A stretch of DNA of 64,000 bases from the NCBI RefSeq assembly GCF_000023325.1, contig NC_012785.1:248001-312000 (forward strand), given 5' to 3'. The stretch's first letter is position 1, and the number at the start of each line of letters is the position of its first letter. Below the pieces are notes generated by a model. The model was not told the origin of the DNA. It ran no database searches and worked only from the letters and a program-made list of their open reading frames with translations. The DNA comes from Kosmotoga olearia TBF 19.5.1. GTDB taxonomy: Bacteria > Thermotogota > Thermotogae > Petrotogales > Kosmotogaceae. Shown here one piece after another: positions 10,617 through 49,146 of this stretch. Both the position numbers and the translations under genes were made by a program.

Positions 10617-10745
10617 GCTGTCAGCTGATAGAGCGACGGAAAAAAACCGTTGTGGGTTGTACGTAAAAAACGAGAAACCGAGATCCGGGAACCGATAGCT
10701 GCTGCGCAGCCGAGGCTTGCAACGCTGTCAGCTGGTAGAGCGACG
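10617..10745 (+). repeat. Two copies of a 22-bp D-arm-like direct repeat and nearby inverted repeats
   Basis: GCTGTCAGCTGRTAGAGCGACG occurs at 10617-10638 and 10724-10745, with a third copy at 12551-12572. From 10712 the second copy and the third are identical for about 34 bp, including the GAGGCTTGCAACG lead. The core CAGCTGGTAGAGCG resembles a tRNA D-arm, but no acceptor, anticodon or T-arm is present. Between the copies are CGAGA-rich stretches like those that flank the hairpin arrays. Confidence 0.75.
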
Positions 10746-10785
10746 CTTGCGAGGCTGAGGCTTGCGGACGCTGATGAAAAGCCAA

Positions 10786-10839
10786 GAATCGAGAGTCCGA
10801 GAGTCCGAGAACCGAGAGGGCCGCTGCGTGGCGGATACG
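10786..10839 (+). repeat. CGAGA-rich leader of the hairpin array
   Basis: GAATCGAGAGTCC followed by tandem GAGAGTCC/GAGAACC words and a GCCGC-type hairpin. The same leader precedes arrays at 13871-13900 and 23319-23353, and a shorter form is at 14013-14037. Reverse-complement TTCTCGG words close the repeat zones at 14388-14416, 23823-23838 and 49080-49096. Confidence 0.75.
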
Positions 10840-10916
10840 AATCCCTTCGGGATTGACCCGAACTCCTTCGGAGTTGTCCCGAACCACTCCGTGGTTGTTC
10901 CGAACCGCAAGCGGTT
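10840..10916 (+). repeat. Hairpin array A: four 15-bp interrupted palindromes at 21-bp pitch
   Basis: Units begin at 10840 (AATCCC-ttc-GGGATT), 10861 (AACTCC-ttc-GGAGTT), 10882 (AACCAC-tcc-GTGGTT) and 10903 (AACCGC-aa-GCGGTT), so the pitch is exactly 21 bp. Spacers are GACCCG, GTCCCG and GTTCCG. Each unit has 6-bp perfectly complementary arms that differ between units. A degenerate GC-rich hairpin sits one pitch upstream (near 10827). Confidence 0.95.
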
Positions 10917-10929
10917 GAAAAAAGCAGTC

Positions 10930-10995
10930 ATTCTGGAGATGTTCTATCCAGAATCTCGTTTTCTTAAGTACGAGATCCTGAATCAAGTTCAGGAT
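10930..10995 (+). repeat. Composite dyad element ATTCTGGA / ATCCTGAA, copy A
   Basis: Three nested dyads follow the array: ATTCTGGA (10930) with TCCAGAAT (ends 10954), TCTCG with CGAGA (10971-10975), and ATCCTGAA-tcaag-TTCAGGAT (10975-10995). Near-identical copies lie at 14148-14213 and 23462-23527, a less perfect one at 23669-23730, and a split one at 12706-12730 plus 12880-12900. TCCTGAAT-type palindromes of this kind recur between genes in many bacteria. Confidence 0.9.
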
Positions 10996-11005
10996 GCCAG
11001 GTAAA

Positions 11006-11045
11006 GAAAATGGGGACAGTCCACTACGGTACTGTCCCCATTTTC
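11006..11045. repeat. 40-bp inverted repeat with perfect 15-bp arms
   Basis: GAAAATGGGGACAGT (11006-11020), a 10-nt loop CCACTACGGT, then ACTGTCCCCATTTTC (11031-11045). A diverged copy is at 13051-13088. As RNA it would be a very stable hairpin but has no U-run positioned as in a normal terminator. From 11046 to about 11150 I see no other structure. Confidence 0.9.
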
Positions 11046-11150
11046 TCAACTTCGTGAGTGTCAGCCATTCCCAGCGTCTTTCTCATTAGCATACTACATT
11101 CCTGCTGCATAGCAGCCCTTCGGTTCTTGTTTACTTACATCTATATTTTC

Positions 11151-11201: not shown

Positions 11202-12482
11202 ATGGAATTGTTTGATATCCTGTTATCGATGAATCTCTGGTGGCGGGGTACTAAGATAGAAGTTCCTGAAATAAAAAGAGATACTTACGATGAAGTTCAA
11301 GAACTTTATAACACTTCTAAAACCATGATTTGCATTCAGGGATTGAGAAGGGTTGGAAAATCTACGTTGATCTTTCAGTTCATAAATGAACTCCTTACAA
11401 ATGGGGCGGACCCGGAGGATATTTTATACATCTCCTTAGATGATCCAAGACTTATCAGTTTTGATTTTCCGATAATCGAAGCTTATGAACTATGGTTAAA
11501 AAGGTTCGGTAGAAGAAAGGCATACCTTTTCGTGGATGAAGCTCATTTTTCCAGAAACTTCGATCTTCAGTTAAAAAGAATCTACGACAACTATGGTCCG
11601 AAGATCGTATTCACAGGTTCCGCATCCCTTTTCTTAAAGAAAGGGATATCCGAAAGCCTTGCAGGCCGGGTTATCTCGGTTCCAATGAATCCATTGTCAT
11701 TCAGAGAATTTCTGAGGTTTAAGAACCTGAAAGTAGAAAGTTTCGTTTCCCTTGAAGAAGCTATTGATAATGCTTATAAGTTGCCTCTGGAGATATACAG
11801 CCTATTCCACGAATACCTGCTCATCGGAGGATTCCCTGAAACTCTAACCTTAAAACCCGAAATGGCGAAAAGGTATTTGCGCGAAACATACGTTGAAAGA
11901 GTTCTTCTAAAGGACATTCCAACAATCTTTGGAAACGTGGATAGTCTAAAACTCCTATCTACTTTCGCAATACTTGCTGAAAGCACGGGAAACAAAATAA
12001 ATTTCACTGAAGTCTCCAGTTCTCTCCGCCTGAAGATCGATACCGTAATAAAATACTCGGATTATATAAAGGCTTCCGGGCTGGTACATTTTATTCAGCG
12101 TATGAGTAAATCGGTAAGAGCACGTCGAAACATAATGCCAAAGGTGTATCTGGCACATCCGTCAATAGCAGGAGCCTTCAGCGAAATCAGGCTGAATGAA
12201 GGAGTTTTAGTGGAAAATGCAGTCGAAAATCATTTAAAAGCGGATAAATATTATTGGGAAGGAAAACGGGAAGTGGATTTTGTCGTAAACGGAATACCTA
12301 TCGAAGTAAAGTTCTCAAACAAGCCAGAAACCGCTCTTAAAAATCTGCAGGAGCTCTCCAGATACTTAGATTTCAAAAGAGCCATCGTGGTCACCAGGGA
12401 CATCTTAAAAAAAGAAAATTCGAATGATAAAGAGATTTTCTTCATACCAGCAGCGGTGTTTCTCCTTAGTGAGGTTCGGTAA
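11202..12482 (+). CDS. AAA-family ATPase with C-terminal DUF4143 domain
   Basis: 426 aa. Walker A GLRRVGKS at residues 47-54, Walker B FVDEAHF near 110, sensor-like FTGSAS, and a C-terminal DUF4143/nuclease-like domain with WEGKREVDFVVNG...PIEVKFSN near residue 350. The D-x-V...E-V-K pattern resembles a PD-(D/E)xK fold. Such ATPases are common accessory genes in archaea and anaerobic bacteria and their cellular role is unknown. ATG at 11202 follows GGGGTGATAAG. It stands alone, flanked on both sides by repeat arrays, and its surroundings suggest an exchangeable island. Confidence 0.88.
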   Translation: MELFDILLSMNLWWRGTKIEVPEIKRDTYDEVQELYNTSKTMICIQGLRRVGKSTLIFQFINELLTNGADPEDILYISLDDPRLISFDFPIIEAYELWLKRFGRRKAYLFVDEAHFSRNFDLQLKRIYDNYGPKIVFTGSASLFLKKGISESLAGRVISVPMNPLSFREFLRFKNLKVESFVSLEEAIDNAYKLPLEIYSLFHEYLLIGGFPETLTLKPEMAKRYLRETYVERVLLKDIPTIFGNVDSLKLLSTFAILAESTGNKINFTEVSSSLRLKIDTVIKYSDYIKASGLVHFIQRMSKSVRARRNIMPKVYLAHPSIAGAFSEIRLNEGVLVENAVENHLKADKYYWEGKREVDFVVNGIPIEVKFSNKPETALKNLQELSRYLDFKRAIVVTRDILKKENSNDKEIFFIPAAVFLLSEVR

Positions 12483-12616: not shown

Positions 12617-12693
12617 AACCGCAAGCGGTTGTCGCGAACTCCTGCGGAGTTGTTCCGAACCACTTCGTGGTTGTCTCGAACCGCTTCGCGGCT
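12617..12693 (+). repeat. Hairpin array B: four units at 20-21-bp pitch
   Basis: Units at 12617 (AACCGC-aa-GCGGTT), 12637 (AACTCC-tgc-GGAGTT), 12658 (AACCAC-ttc-GTGGTT) and 12679 (AACCGC-ttc-GCGGct). Spacers GTCGCG, GTTCCG and GTCTCG. The 14-bp first unit accounts for the single 20-bp step. The last unit has one unpaired end position. Confidence 0.95.
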
Positions 12694-12705
12694 GAAAAAA
12701 CTGTC

Positions 12706-12730
12706 ATTCTGGAGATGTCCTATCCAGAAT
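12706..12730 (+). repeat. Left half of the composite dyad element, copy B
   Basis: ATTCTGGA (12706-12713) with TCCAGAAT (12723-12730). In other copies the ATCCTGAA dyad follows within 30 bp. Here it is at 12880-12900 (ATCCTGAA with TTCAGCAT), and the 25-bp-pitch array lies between the two halves. Confidence 0.85.
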
Positions 12731-12752
12731 CTGCTCTATGTACCCTTTCGTC

Positions 12753-12852
12753 AACGGCGTAGCCGCTCCAAGCATCAATCAGCGGAGCTGATTCCAGCAT
12801 CAATCGCCAAAAGTGATTCCAAGCGTCATTGCCAGGGGCAATCCAAGCATCT
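12753..12852 (+). repeat. Hairpin array with 25-bp pitch and CCAAGCATC spacer
   Basis: Interrupted palindromes are centred at 12760 (AACGGC-gta-GCCGCT), 12785 (ATCAGC-gga-GCTGAT), 12810 (ATCGC-caaaa-GTGAT) and 12835 (ATTGCC-agg-GGCAAT), exactly 25 bp apart. The 10-nt spacers are CCAAGCATCA, TCCAGCATCA, TCCAAGCGTC and CCAAGCATCT. Same 15-nt hairpin size as the 21-bp arrays, but a different constant spacer. Confidence 0.9.
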
Positions 12853-12933
12853 GCGTACGCTTTCTGCACTTCAGACGAGATCCTGAATTAAGTTCAGCAT
12901 GACGGGTTATGGATGTTTATATTGAACAGTAAA

Positions 12934-12999
12934 GTAGGGGCACAGCATGCTGTGCCCTTTAATAGGATTTACAAAGGGCAGAACATGTTCTGCCCCTAC
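12934..12999. repeat. REP-like pair of GTAG-headed palindromes in inverted orientation
   Basis: GTAGGGGCACAGCATGCTG... (12934-12960) and AAAGGGCAGAACATGTTC... (12973-12999) are two 27-nt palindromes separated by 12 nt. The first begins with GTAG and the second ends with CTAC, so the two form an inverted pair with conserved outer arms and different inner stems. A 5' GTAG next to a hairpin is the hallmark of REP elements mobilised by TnpA-REP proteins; no such gene is in this window. Confidence 0.85.
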
Positions 13000-13050
13000 G
13001 ATAAAGAACAGCTATTCATTACAGCCTAACAATTATGGCTTGCCATCTGA

Positions 13051-13088
13051 GAAAATGGGGATAGTCCGCTACGATACTACCCCATTTT
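13051..13088. repeat. Diverged copy of the GAAAATGGGGACAGT inverted repeat
   Basis: GAAAATGGGGATAGT (13051-13065), a 10-nt loop, then ACTACCCCATTTTT. Compared with 11006-11045, changes occur in both arms. It lies just beyond the 3' end of hepT and could act as its transcription terminator on the minus strand. Confidence 0.7.
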
Positions 13089-13103: not shown

Positions 13104-13451
13104 TTAAAAACGCATATCGCTTTTTATTGATTCTATTTGCTTTCTTAATTCTGGAAGATCATTTTTTATAATAGCCCACACAATATCAAAGTTAACTCCG
13201 AAATAATCATGGATTAGCTTGTCTCGGGTACCTGCTATTTCTTTCCATGGAATCCGGGAATATTTTTGCCGGATATGAAGTGGAATCTTTTTTGCCGCTT
13301 CCCCGATAATTTCTATATTTCTCACAACAGCATCCTGCGTTTTAAGATCATTTAGAAATTCATTGTACGTCAGATTGTCTATGTAGTTCATTATTCTGTT
13401 TATTGCTTCAATAATATCTTCAATCAGTTCTGTAGGGGTTCTTTCAGACAT
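13104..13451 (-). CDS. hepT: HepT-type HEPN toxin (DUF86)
   Basis: 115 aa, all-helical HEPN domain with the RX4HXY motif at Arg76-His81-Tyr83 (RDKLIHDY). HEPN toxins of this kind are RNases; the paired MntA proteins neutralise them by adding AMP groups to the tyrosine of this motif. It overlaps mntA by 8 bp and is downstream of it, the usual order for many of these pairs. The motif is complete, so an active toxin is expected. Confidence 0.92.
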   Translation of the reverse strand: MSERTPTELIEDIIEAINRIMNYIDNLTYNEFLNDLKTQDAVVRNIEIIGEAAKKIPLHIRQKYSRIPWKEIAGTRDKLIHDYFGVNFDIVWAIIKNDLPELRKQIESIKSDMRF

Positions 13452-13746
13452 AGGTAAGCGTCCTTTCTATATCCTCTTTTACCTTACGGTTTCTTATCGT
13501 TTTTAGACCGATCGGGGTAATTAGATCAACTTTTTTACCAAGGGCGTTTTCCAGAAACTCCGCTAATTCCATAAACTTTAAACCCGGAACTTTATCAAAT
13601 TCAACATAAATATCTATGTCGCTGTCTTTCGTCTGAGATCCTTTTGAGAAAGAGCCAAACACGGCTATTTTACTCACGCCAAATCTATCTCTAAGCTCCG
13701 GCAGTAACTCTTTCAACACATTAATAATTGCACCAAGATCTTTCAT
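13444..13746 (-). CDS. mntA: MntA-type minimal nucleotidyltransferase antitoxin
   Basis: 100 aa with the nucleotidyltransferase motif GSX10DXD: GSFSKGSQTKDSDID from Gly31 to Asp45. The family transfers AMP onto HepT and thereby silences it. ATG at 13746 has GAGGTGATATT upstream. The pair lies between repeat arrays in the accessory island, consistent with a mobile or defence-related toxin-antitoxin module. Confidence 0.92.
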   Translation of the reverse strand: MKDLGAIINVLKELLPELRDRFGVSKIAVFGSFSKGSQTKDSDIDIYVEFDKVPGLKFMELAEFLENALGKKVDLITPIGLKTIRNRKVKEDIERTLTYV

Positions 13747-13773: not shown

Positions 13774-13897
13774 TACACTTTAATTATGCACGAATGATGC
13801 TGGCGGAACTTCGTTCTGGACGCTTACAGAGGCTGTCCGCTGCAGGGCAGCGGGAGCGAACTCCTGGTAAGAATCGAGAGTCCGAGAACCGAGAGGA

Positions 13898-13971
13898 CCG
13901 CTGTGCGGCTGGTGAGCACGCTGCGCGTGGGTAAGCCCGGCTGCGCTGGGGTTGCGAACTGCTTCGCAGTG
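13898..13971 (+). repeat. Hairpin array C1 with GGTRAG spacers
   Basis: Stems CCGC-tgt-GCGG (centre 13903), CACGC-tgc-GCGTG (13923), CCCGGC-tgc-GCTGGG (13943) and AACTGC-ttc-GCAGTg (13964), at a pitch of 20-21 bp. Spacers include GGTGAG and GGTAAG. Just upstream, 13860-13867 is a half unit AACTCCTG that runs directly into the CGAGA-rich leader (GTAAGAATCGAGAGTCC), as also happens at 23306. Confidence 0.88.
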
Positions 13972-14037
13972 ATAAACACCGTTGTGGGTTGTCGGTTGTA
14001 GGTTGTGCGTAAAATCGAGAAGCCGAGAGTCGATAGG

Positions 14038-14134
14038 GCCGCTATGCGGCAGATATGAATCCCTTCGGGATTGTCACGAACTCCTGCGGAGTTGTTTCGA
14101 ACCACTACGTGGTTGTTCCGAACCGCAAGCGGTT
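14038..14134 (+). repeat. Hairpin array C2: five units at 21-bp pitch
   Basis: Units: GCCGC-tat-GCGGC (centre 14044), then AATCCC-ttc-GGGATT at 14058, AACTCC-tgc-GGAGTT at 14079, AACCAC-tac-GTGGTT at 14100 and AACCGC-aa-GCGGTT at 14121. All steps are 21 bp. Unit order matches array A, while loops differ (tgc for ttc, tac for tcc). Confidence 0.95.
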
Positions 14135-14147
14135 GAAAAAAGCAGTC

Positions 14148-14213
14148 ATTCTGGAAATGTTTTATCCAGAATCTCGTTTTCTTAAGTACGAGATCCTGAA
14201 TCAAGTTCAGGAT
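14148..14213 (+). repeat. Composite dyad element, copy C
   Basis: ATTCTGGA/TCCAGAAT followed by ATCCTGAA-tcaag-TTCAGGAT, nearly identical to 10930-10995 and placed at the same distance after its array. Confidence 0.9.
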
Positions 14214-23178: not shown

Positions 23179-23242
23179 CGTCTATTTGCCTCTGAAGGGG
23201 AAATTTCACGAAATATCGGCTCAAATGGGGGATTTTGAATAT

Positions 23243-23313
23243 CGCTGCTTCGCAGCGGAAACGAATCCCTTCGGGATTGAAACGACCGGCCGCGCCGGTG
23301 ATACGTACTCCTG
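23243..23313 (+). repeat. Hairpin array D1: three units plus a broken fourth
   Basis: Units at 23243 (CGCTGC-ttc-GCAGCG), 23264 (AATCCC-ttc-GGGATT) and 23285 (ACCGGC-cgc-GCCGGT), at exact 21-bp pitch with spacers GAAACG, GAAACG and GATACG. At the next position (23306) only TACTCCTG remains and it runs straight into the CGAGA-rich leader of array D2. Confidence 0.94.
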
Positions 23314-23318
23314 ATAAG

Positions 23319-23448
23319 AATCGAGAGTCCGAGAGTCCGAGAACCGAGAGGGCCGTTGCGTGGCGGATACGAATCCCTTCGGGATTGACCCGAACTCCTT
23401 CGGAGTTGTCTCGAACCACTCCGTGGTTGTTCCGAACCGCAAGCGGTT
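23319..23448 (+). repeat. Hairpin array D2 with leader: four units at 21-bp pitch
   Basis: The leader GAATCGAGAGTCC is at 23319. Units follow at 23372 (AATCCC-ttc-GGGATT), 23393 (AACTCC-ttc-GGAGTT), 23414 (AACCAC-tcc-GTGGTT) and 23435 (AACCGC-aa-GCGGTT), the same order and loops as array A. Between 23319 and 23527 the segment is nearly identical to 10786-10995, so these are two copies of one long element. Confidence 0.95.
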
Positions 23449-23461
23449 GAAAAAAGCAGTC

Positions 23462-23527
23462 ATTCTGGAGATTTCTTATCCAGAATCTTGGTATCTCAAG
23501 TACGAGATCCTGAATCAAGTTCAGGAT
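23462..23527 (+). repeat. Composite dyad element, copy D1
   Basis: ATTCTGGA/TCCAGAAT then ATCCTGAA-tcaag-TTCAGGAT, as after arrays A and C2. Confidence 0.9.
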
Positions 23528-23541
23528 GACGGGTGTACAAA

Positions 23542-23612
23542 GAATCGTAGATTCGACCGGCTGCGCCGGTGTTACGAACTCCTGCGGAGTTGCCTCGAAC
23601 CACTGCGTGGTT
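23542..23612 (+). repeat. Hairpin array D3
   Basis: GAATC-gta-GATTC (23542-23554), then ACCGGC-tgc-GCCGGT at 23556, AACTCC-tgc-GGAGTT at 23577 and AACCAC-tgc-GTGGTT at 23598; the last three are at exact 21-bp pitch with spacers GTTACG and GCCTCG. All three of these loops are tgc. Confidence 0.93.
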
Positions 23613-23624
23613 GAAAAAAGCTGA

Positions 23625-48889: not shown

Positions 48890-48937
48890 AAACACGAGAA
48901 TCCAAGAAATGGTAAGCTCGATTACGCTGAGGGTACG

Positions 48938-49015
48938 AATCCCTTTGGGATTGACTCGAACTCCTGCGGAGTTGTTCCGAACCACTTCGTGGTTGTCTCG
49001 AACTGCTTCGCAGTT
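48938..49015 (+). repeat. Hairpin array E: four units at exact 21-bp pitch
   Basis: Units at 48938 (AATCCC-ttt-GGGATT), 48959 (AACTCC-tgc-GGAGTT), 48980 (AACCAC-ttc-GTGGTT) and 49001 (AACTGC-ttc-GCAGTT); spacers GACTCG, GTTCCG and GTCTCG. A short GGTAAG word is at 48911, degenerate sequence with a TTCAGGAT remnant follows to about 49070, and TTCTCGGGATCTCGG closes the zone at 49080-49096. Confidence 0.95.
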
Positions 49016-49146
49016 GATATGCGCCTGCGGCGGATAAAACCCAAAAATGAGATACCGATTTAAATTCAGGATCTATCTACAGTACTCAACTTCTCGGGAT
49101 CTCGGACAAGAATTTCTTAAAATTAGTTAAATAGCATTTACCAGAA

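Follow-up and report, generated by a model that had tools for sequence, protein, structure and literature searches.

A head-to-tail minihairpin array in Kosmotoga olearia TBF 19.5.1 belongs to a genome-wide mosaic family of non-coding repeats

Background

Palindromic repeats with a tag are widespread among bacteria, but the ways in which they are recognised and the reasons why they persist are unsettled. In Streptococcus pneumoniae, BOX elements are built according to the scheme boxA-boxBn-boxC. The CGTC REPs carry a CGTC, TGTC or CCTC tag, A/T-starting stems of 8–9 bp, loops of 4–5 nt and CCA tails, show only negligible head-to-tail dimers, and count K. olearia and Mesotoga prima among their hosts (Di Nocera, De Gregorio, Rocco 2013, PMC3733652). 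They were described without a linked transposase (PMC3733652) and are still without a known enzyme. The TnpA-REP of S. maltophilia depends on a perfect stem closed by a triloop that begins with G, and it rejects the inverted loop (PMC8266576).

The present analysis concerns an array of four short palindromes in a 64,000-bp stretch of the genome of the heat-loving bacterium K. olearia TBF 19.5.1 (bases 248001–312000 of the single 2,302,126-bp contig; hereafter, the window). This array is part of a genome-wide, non-coding mosaic family of minihairpin arrays, and, judged by its unit layout against that given by Di Nocera et al., it appears to be a variant of the CGTC REPs with short stems in head-to-tail order. 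Pattern and similarity searches of the genome were combined with sampled stretches covering about 37 % of it. Neither these arrays nor the purine-N-A loop rule reported below turned up in literature searches, which were conducted mostly outside subscription papers. Since the many natural variants in this genome differ independently in stem letters, loop and spacer, recognition of structure and recognition of sequence become separable.

Composition of the array and its flanks

The array and its neighbouring elements are listed below; assignments were made from the sequence, the first tag following the tag layout of the other units and both REPs following the layout of Di Nocera et al. (2013).

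12617–12693, minus strand: 21-type array of four hairpins with purine-N-A loops on the minus strand
12702–12732, plus strand: left REP, TGTC-ATTCTGGA..TCCAGAAT-CT, with tag and stem
12739–12748, plus strand: remnant TGTACCCTTT of the GTAGGGGCACAGCATGCTGTGCCCTTT palindrome
12749–12752, plus strand: CGTC tag ahead of palindrome 1
12753–12767, plus strand: palindrome 1, AACGGC-GTA-GCCGCT, one mismatch
12768–12776, plus strand: spacer CCAAGCATC, consisting of tail CCA, AG and tag CATC
12777–12793, plus strand: palindrome 2, AATCAGC-GGA-GCTGATT
12794–12801, plus strand: spacer CCAGCATC, shorter by one base than its counterparts elsewhere
12802–12818, plus strand: palindrome 3, AATCGC-CAAAA-GTGATT, one mismatch (GCGATT in other copies)
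12819–12827, plus strand: spacer CCAAGCGTC carrying a CGTC tag
12828–12842, plus strand: palindrome 4, ATTGCC-AGG-GGCAAT
12843–12851, plus strand: spacer CCAAGCATC behind the last palindrome
12852–12879, plus strand: conserved 3' tail TGCGTACGCTTTCTGCACTTCAGACGAG, joining the array to the right REP
12878–12904, minus strand: right REP, CGTC-ATGCTGAA..TTCAGGAT-CTC
13799–13826, minus strand: lone 25-type unit, CGTC-CAGAAC-GAA-GTTCCG-CCAGC

The four palindromes at 25-bp steps reported in the first-pass annotation were confirmed, the 15-mers starting at 12753, 12778, 12803 and 12828 (centres at 12760, 12785, 12810 and 12835). Of the 24 arm positions, 21 are complementary, which no other site in the window surpasses for such a geometry; five shuffles reached maxima of 15–17. 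Palindromes 1 (AACGGC/GCCGCT) and 3 (ATCGC/GTGAT) contain one mismatch each. The nearly constant spacer, given as 10 nt in the first-pass annotation, is better read from the alignment with other copies as 9 nt, CC(A/C)AGC(A/G)TC, the four spacers being, in order, CCAAGCATC, CC-AGCATC, CCAAGCGTC and CCAAGCATC. In the same alignment, the palindromes measure 15, 17, 17 and 15 nt, and the natural 25-type unit comprises a 15–18-nt palindrome and a 9-nt spacer, with pitches of 24–27 bp elsewhere. Its layout is tag (CGTC or CATC), palindrome and CCA tail, with units arranged head-to-tail. The 25-bp pitch is exact in the window because one spacer has lost a base and palindrome 3 has a longer loop; it is an incidental property of the window copy, as pitches in the copy at 749 kb are 26, 25 and 24 bp.

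The array sits between both halves of the ATTCTGGA/ATCCTGAA element, as had been noticed earlier, but only in this copy: those at 749 and 900 kb adjoin the right half alone and that at 1917 kb neither half. This element agrees with the CGTC REP dimer already known in K. olearia. The 3' tail TGCGTACGCTTTCTGCACTTCAGACGAG recurs in the copies at 749 and 900 kb as well as in a related genome (L038), and the GTAGGGGCACAGCATGCTGTGCCCTTT palindrome precedes the copies at 900 and 1917 kb, with only TGTACCCTTT left in the window.

Further 21-type and CYYACC-type hairpin arrays are located in the window at 10621–10990, 13856–14210, 23240–23620 and 48930–49030, and behind several of them come a CGTC REP dimer and degenerate repeats rich in CTCGG. 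Many of these arrays yield spurious ORFs of 100–150 aa, since both 21 and 42 are divisible by three. Palindromes of the AAAATGGGGACAGT..ACTGTCCCCATTTT type, resembling the GGGGWSAS terminal repeats of TIR-associated tyrosine transposases, were detected at 11006–11046 and 13053–13087, and the perfect palindromic elements GGGGCACAGCATGCTGTGCCC and GGGCAGAACATGTTCTGCCC stand in tandem at 12943–13002. A gene pair for a HepT-like nuclease and an MNT-like nucleotidyltransferase (toxin-antitoxin type; 13104–13746) adjoins the array, and an AAA/DUF4143 ATPase gene (11202–12482) is located upstream.

Copies and relatives of the 25-type array

Absence of further copies had been named as the outcome that would mark the array as a chance cluster. 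Three other full copies were, however, identified at 749225 (plus strand), 899825 (minus strand) and 1917471 (plus strand), with 87–90 % identity, and all four share the same four palindromes in identical order. In addition, there are about ten partial or rearranged relatives (1089, 1281, 1286, 1338, 1389, 1505, 1511 and 1627 kb, as well as 13.8 kb of the window). The array is thus real and not a chance cluster. In G002, the nearest complete relative, the last 25-type unit is preserved together with the tail and the right REP (L038). An exact-spacer pattern search of the genome gave zero matches because the spacers vary, and the unit-2 pattern had zero matches in viral contigs. Across GTDB species genomes, the latter matched once, in an apparent coding sequence of an Anaerolineales MAG, which was taken as chance.

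Palindrome 1 occurs in other copies as AGCGGC-GTA-GCCGCT and AATGGC-GTA-GCCATT, i.e. two of its six pairs change on both sides (A-T to G-C and C-G to T-A). Across eight related sequences, 95.8 % of the cells of this unit are paired, a value reached by 17 of 500 shuffles. Loops of the 25-type follow the purine..A rule less strictly than those of the 21-type.

Both types also meet. At 1338 kb, the 25-type spacer bears four other palindromes, including AACCAC-GAA-GTGGTT, a hairpin that in other places belongs to the 21-bp class; this very hairpin also forms the passage from a 21-type array into the 25-type spacer near 1286 kb; and at 1281 kb, a chimeric, broken hairpin (AACCAC-GAA-GCTGATT) is joined at the loop.

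A genome-wide family of minihairpins

One design, a short palindrome mostly with a triloop and a constant spacer, recurs on the spacer words CGNNNC (21-bp pitch), CYYACC (20–21), CCMAGCRTC (24–27) and TCRCTTC (23–24). Arrays on the TCRCTTC spacer with 15–16-nt palindromes and a pitch of about 23–25 bp (L038, 1250–1460; L079, 1560–1620) are common to this genome and its relative G002. In the intergenic mosaics holding the window array, the 21-bp class is dominant, and the 21-bp pitch accounts for 87 of about 140 neighbour distances. Within 464 kb of partly targeted sequence, 363 hairpins with a 3-nt loop and a stem of at least 6 bp were counted, as compared to 119 in random sequence, and 52 versus 35 with a stem of at least 7 bp; since the excess is strong at the former and small at the latter threshold, stems are exactly 6 bp long. 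GNA/TNC loops numbered 212 versus 26 in the same comparison. Samples from two relatives displayed little or no excess of triloop hairpins. A spread-out and less biased 400-kb sample contained 24 arrays with 71 hairpins, which by extrapolation corresponds to about 140 arrays and about 400 hairpins per genome.

The pattern CGNNNCAACNNCGNAGNNGTTCGNNNC had 113 matches in the genome versus 0 for the backward control; in viral contigs, the 21-type pattern gave 26 single matches, approximately the number that we estimate for 16 fixed bases by chance. Leaving the inner four pairs free in spacer-anchored 21-type units and requiring at least three of them to be paired, 119 of 123 units are palindromic, and their loops (104 GNA and 15 ANA) place purine-N-A on one fixed strand. 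ANA loops with a sheared A·A pair are known. Paired stem changes are exemplified by AACTCC-GGAGTT, AACTCT-AGAGTT and AACTCA-TGAGTT. Units follow the order AACYGC, AACCAC, AACTCC, ACCGGC, AATCCC, CGCYGC, with some skipped at times, and this order recurs in the related genomes G002 (L190) and G006 (L189).

Spread and exchange of array modules

The first-pass annotation envisaged one mechanism that builds arrays on different spacer words. A common design on several words does exist, and at 1338 kb one spacer carries other palindromes; continual building of new arrays, on the other hand, finds no support, given that the copies share their four hairpins in unchanged order and that the 21-type order is conserved, also in related species. 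Nor does growth appear to proceed unit by unit, as the one allelic difference, at the 131 kb locus, resembles a swap with a paralogous array. Alleles of this locus are carried by contigs of two metagenome-derived genomes, G042 (L186, contig C46) and G004 (L187, contig C111); these contigs are nearly identical to the locus and usable as strain alleles. Both genomes belong to other genera, and the contigs may be misbinned. The G004 contig matches the locus at 96 %, with a 40-bp module replacing a short stretch, and this allele is matched contiguously (91 %) by a paralogue at 2103 kb of the present genome. The simplest reading of this difference would be that dispersed arrays underwent gene conversion or ectopic recombination with each other. 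The MAGs bearing Kosmotoga-like contigs contained no orthologous allele of the window array locus.

The conserved unit order together with the paralogue module in the allele argues that arrays disperse in whole blocks and trade pieces with each other. Comparison of the copies shows dispersal in blocks of fixed unit order, with stem letters changing in pairs so that the stem is kept.

A candidate enzyme

Two RAYT-like Y1 transposase genes are present at 1342 and 1355 kb (L107 and L108). Their products score 68 bits against the NCBIfam REP-transposase model (cut-off 80) and above the Pfam Y1_Tnp cut-off. Both genes lie within a duplicated segment of 839 bp (95 % identical), which includes a decayed 21-type array fragment on the 3' side of each gene; neither has an intact array unit at both ends. 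RAYT-like genes also occur in relatives without the triloop excess, and their presence does not track array abundance. With the stem and loop demands of the S. maltophilia TnpA-REP as a close functional parallel, we hypothesise that a RAYT-like or other IS200/REP-type HUH transposase may be tied to the arrays.

Maintenance of the hairpins

Our preferred reading, which we hold with slightly better than even confidence, is that of dispersed mosaic arrays of CGTC REP variants in which a single-stranded DNA hairpin is kept by selection and/or by template-switch correction, and in which modules are reshuffled by recombination. What is conserved would be the hairpin into which one of the two DNA strands folds when it is single-stranded. 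Selection might preserve it as the target of a protein that binds hairpins in a strand-specific manner, with an HUH transposase of the IS200/REP type as the candidate, and/or template-switch correction during replication might do so, while ectopic recombination or gene conversion would reshuffle the modules. More tentatively, and with distinctly less than even confidence, the repeats may be addressed by DNA structure instead of sequence, namely by short paired stems with free letters and a strand-fixed purine-N-A triloop, in tandem on interchangeable spacers, with a predicted single-strand enzyme recognising the hairpin and processing the repeats. Such a strand-fixed triloop predicts that one DNA strand folds and matters.

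Several other explanations were weighed against these data. That the arrays are passive debris, with template switching copying one arm onto the other and neither protein nor benefit involved, is unlikely, albeit with points in its favour: according to PMC8794818, template switching can create and maintain perfect hairpins, stem sequences vary yet stay paired, and chimeric broken hairpins such as that at 1281 kb exist. Template switching, however, also inverts loops, and no inverted (TNC) loop was found among the 119 palindromic spacer-anchored 21-type units; moreover, it leaves the 6-bp stems and the GNA/ANA rule unexplained. Arrays of duplex binding sites for a nucleoid protein or regulator, lined up on one helix face, would account for the dominant pitch, 21 bp being two helical turns. 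Yet a duplex-binding protein reads bases, whereas here stem letters vary with pairing kept, the loop is strand-asymmetric and the 25-type pitch varies, so that we regard this explanation as very improbable. A chance cluster of palindromes, for which only the small number of units could speak, has a negligible probability in view of the 21 of 24 paired positions versus at most 17 after shuffling and of the full copies elsewhere.

Elements acting at the RNA level, i.e. terminators, mRNA stabilisers or structured RNA in transcripts, would agree with the intergenic location and the stable stem-loops, and REPs have often been proposed to act in mRNA. Nevertheless, such a role is improbable. Rfam covariance models gave no match at E≤1 save a chance 19-nt match elsewhere, and RNA folding of the whole array on both strands was no better than that of shuffles (z of -0.68 and -0.34). 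Furthermore, the purine-loop strand is sense to genes in 16 cases and antisense in 27 and hence lacks a gene-sense preference, divergent gene pairs are not avoided, and neighbouring arrays lie in opposite orientations. Mismatches on the purine-loop strand are G·T in 11 and A·C in 4 cases, a trend only (p = 0.12), in the direction expected if this strand folds. DNA folding energies calculated with available parameters did not separate the two strands. According to PMC6479982 (citing Yoshizawa 1997), GNA triloops give extraordinarily stable DNA minihairpins with a sheared G·A pair. Gene-strand neutrality, the G·T trend, GNA stability and the negative Rfam and RNA folding results together favour upkeep of the hairpin as single-stranded DNA.

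Comparison with known systems

With the CGTC REPs, the array shares the tag, the A/T-starting stem, the CCA tail, the intergenic location and heterogeneous letters. Units 1 and 4 carry CGTC, and units 2 and 3 carry CATC, a variant unlisted for CGTC REPs; stems start with AACGGC, AATCAGC, AATCGC and ATTGCC (CG in a few relatives), and CCA or CCC(A) follows the palindrome as an unpaired tail. In contrast to CGTC REPs, stems are 5–7 rather than 8–9 bp long, loops mostly have 3 and in some cases 4–5 nt rather than 4–5, and all four units are arranged head-to-tail rather than head-to-head, on a fixed spacer and with neighbouring units differing from each other. The GTAG REPs acted upon by TnpA-REP/RAYT (S. 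maltophilia group 3, PMC8266576) are similar in their perfect stem, their triloop with G at position 1, their strand specificity, the tag ahead of the hairpin and partly free stem letters; the present arrays differ by the lack of a GTAG tag, the shorter stem, the head-to-tail arrangement and a cognate enzyme that is only a candidate.

BOX elements likewise have repeated internal units, and the window copy is similarly placed between two end modules, but the other array copies are not bounded by both modules and the units are different palindromes. As in BIMEs, palindromes and linker modules make up mosaics between genes in a multitude of arrangements, and REP halves and arrays are combined with other palindromes in varying ways. 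While the regularly spaced REPs of BIMEs alternate in orientation, according to PMC2817692, the arrays consist of distinct minipalindromes in a single orientation. Overall, the array looks like a variant of REP/BIME-type repeats, composed of head-to-tail minipalindromes with CGTC or CATC tags.
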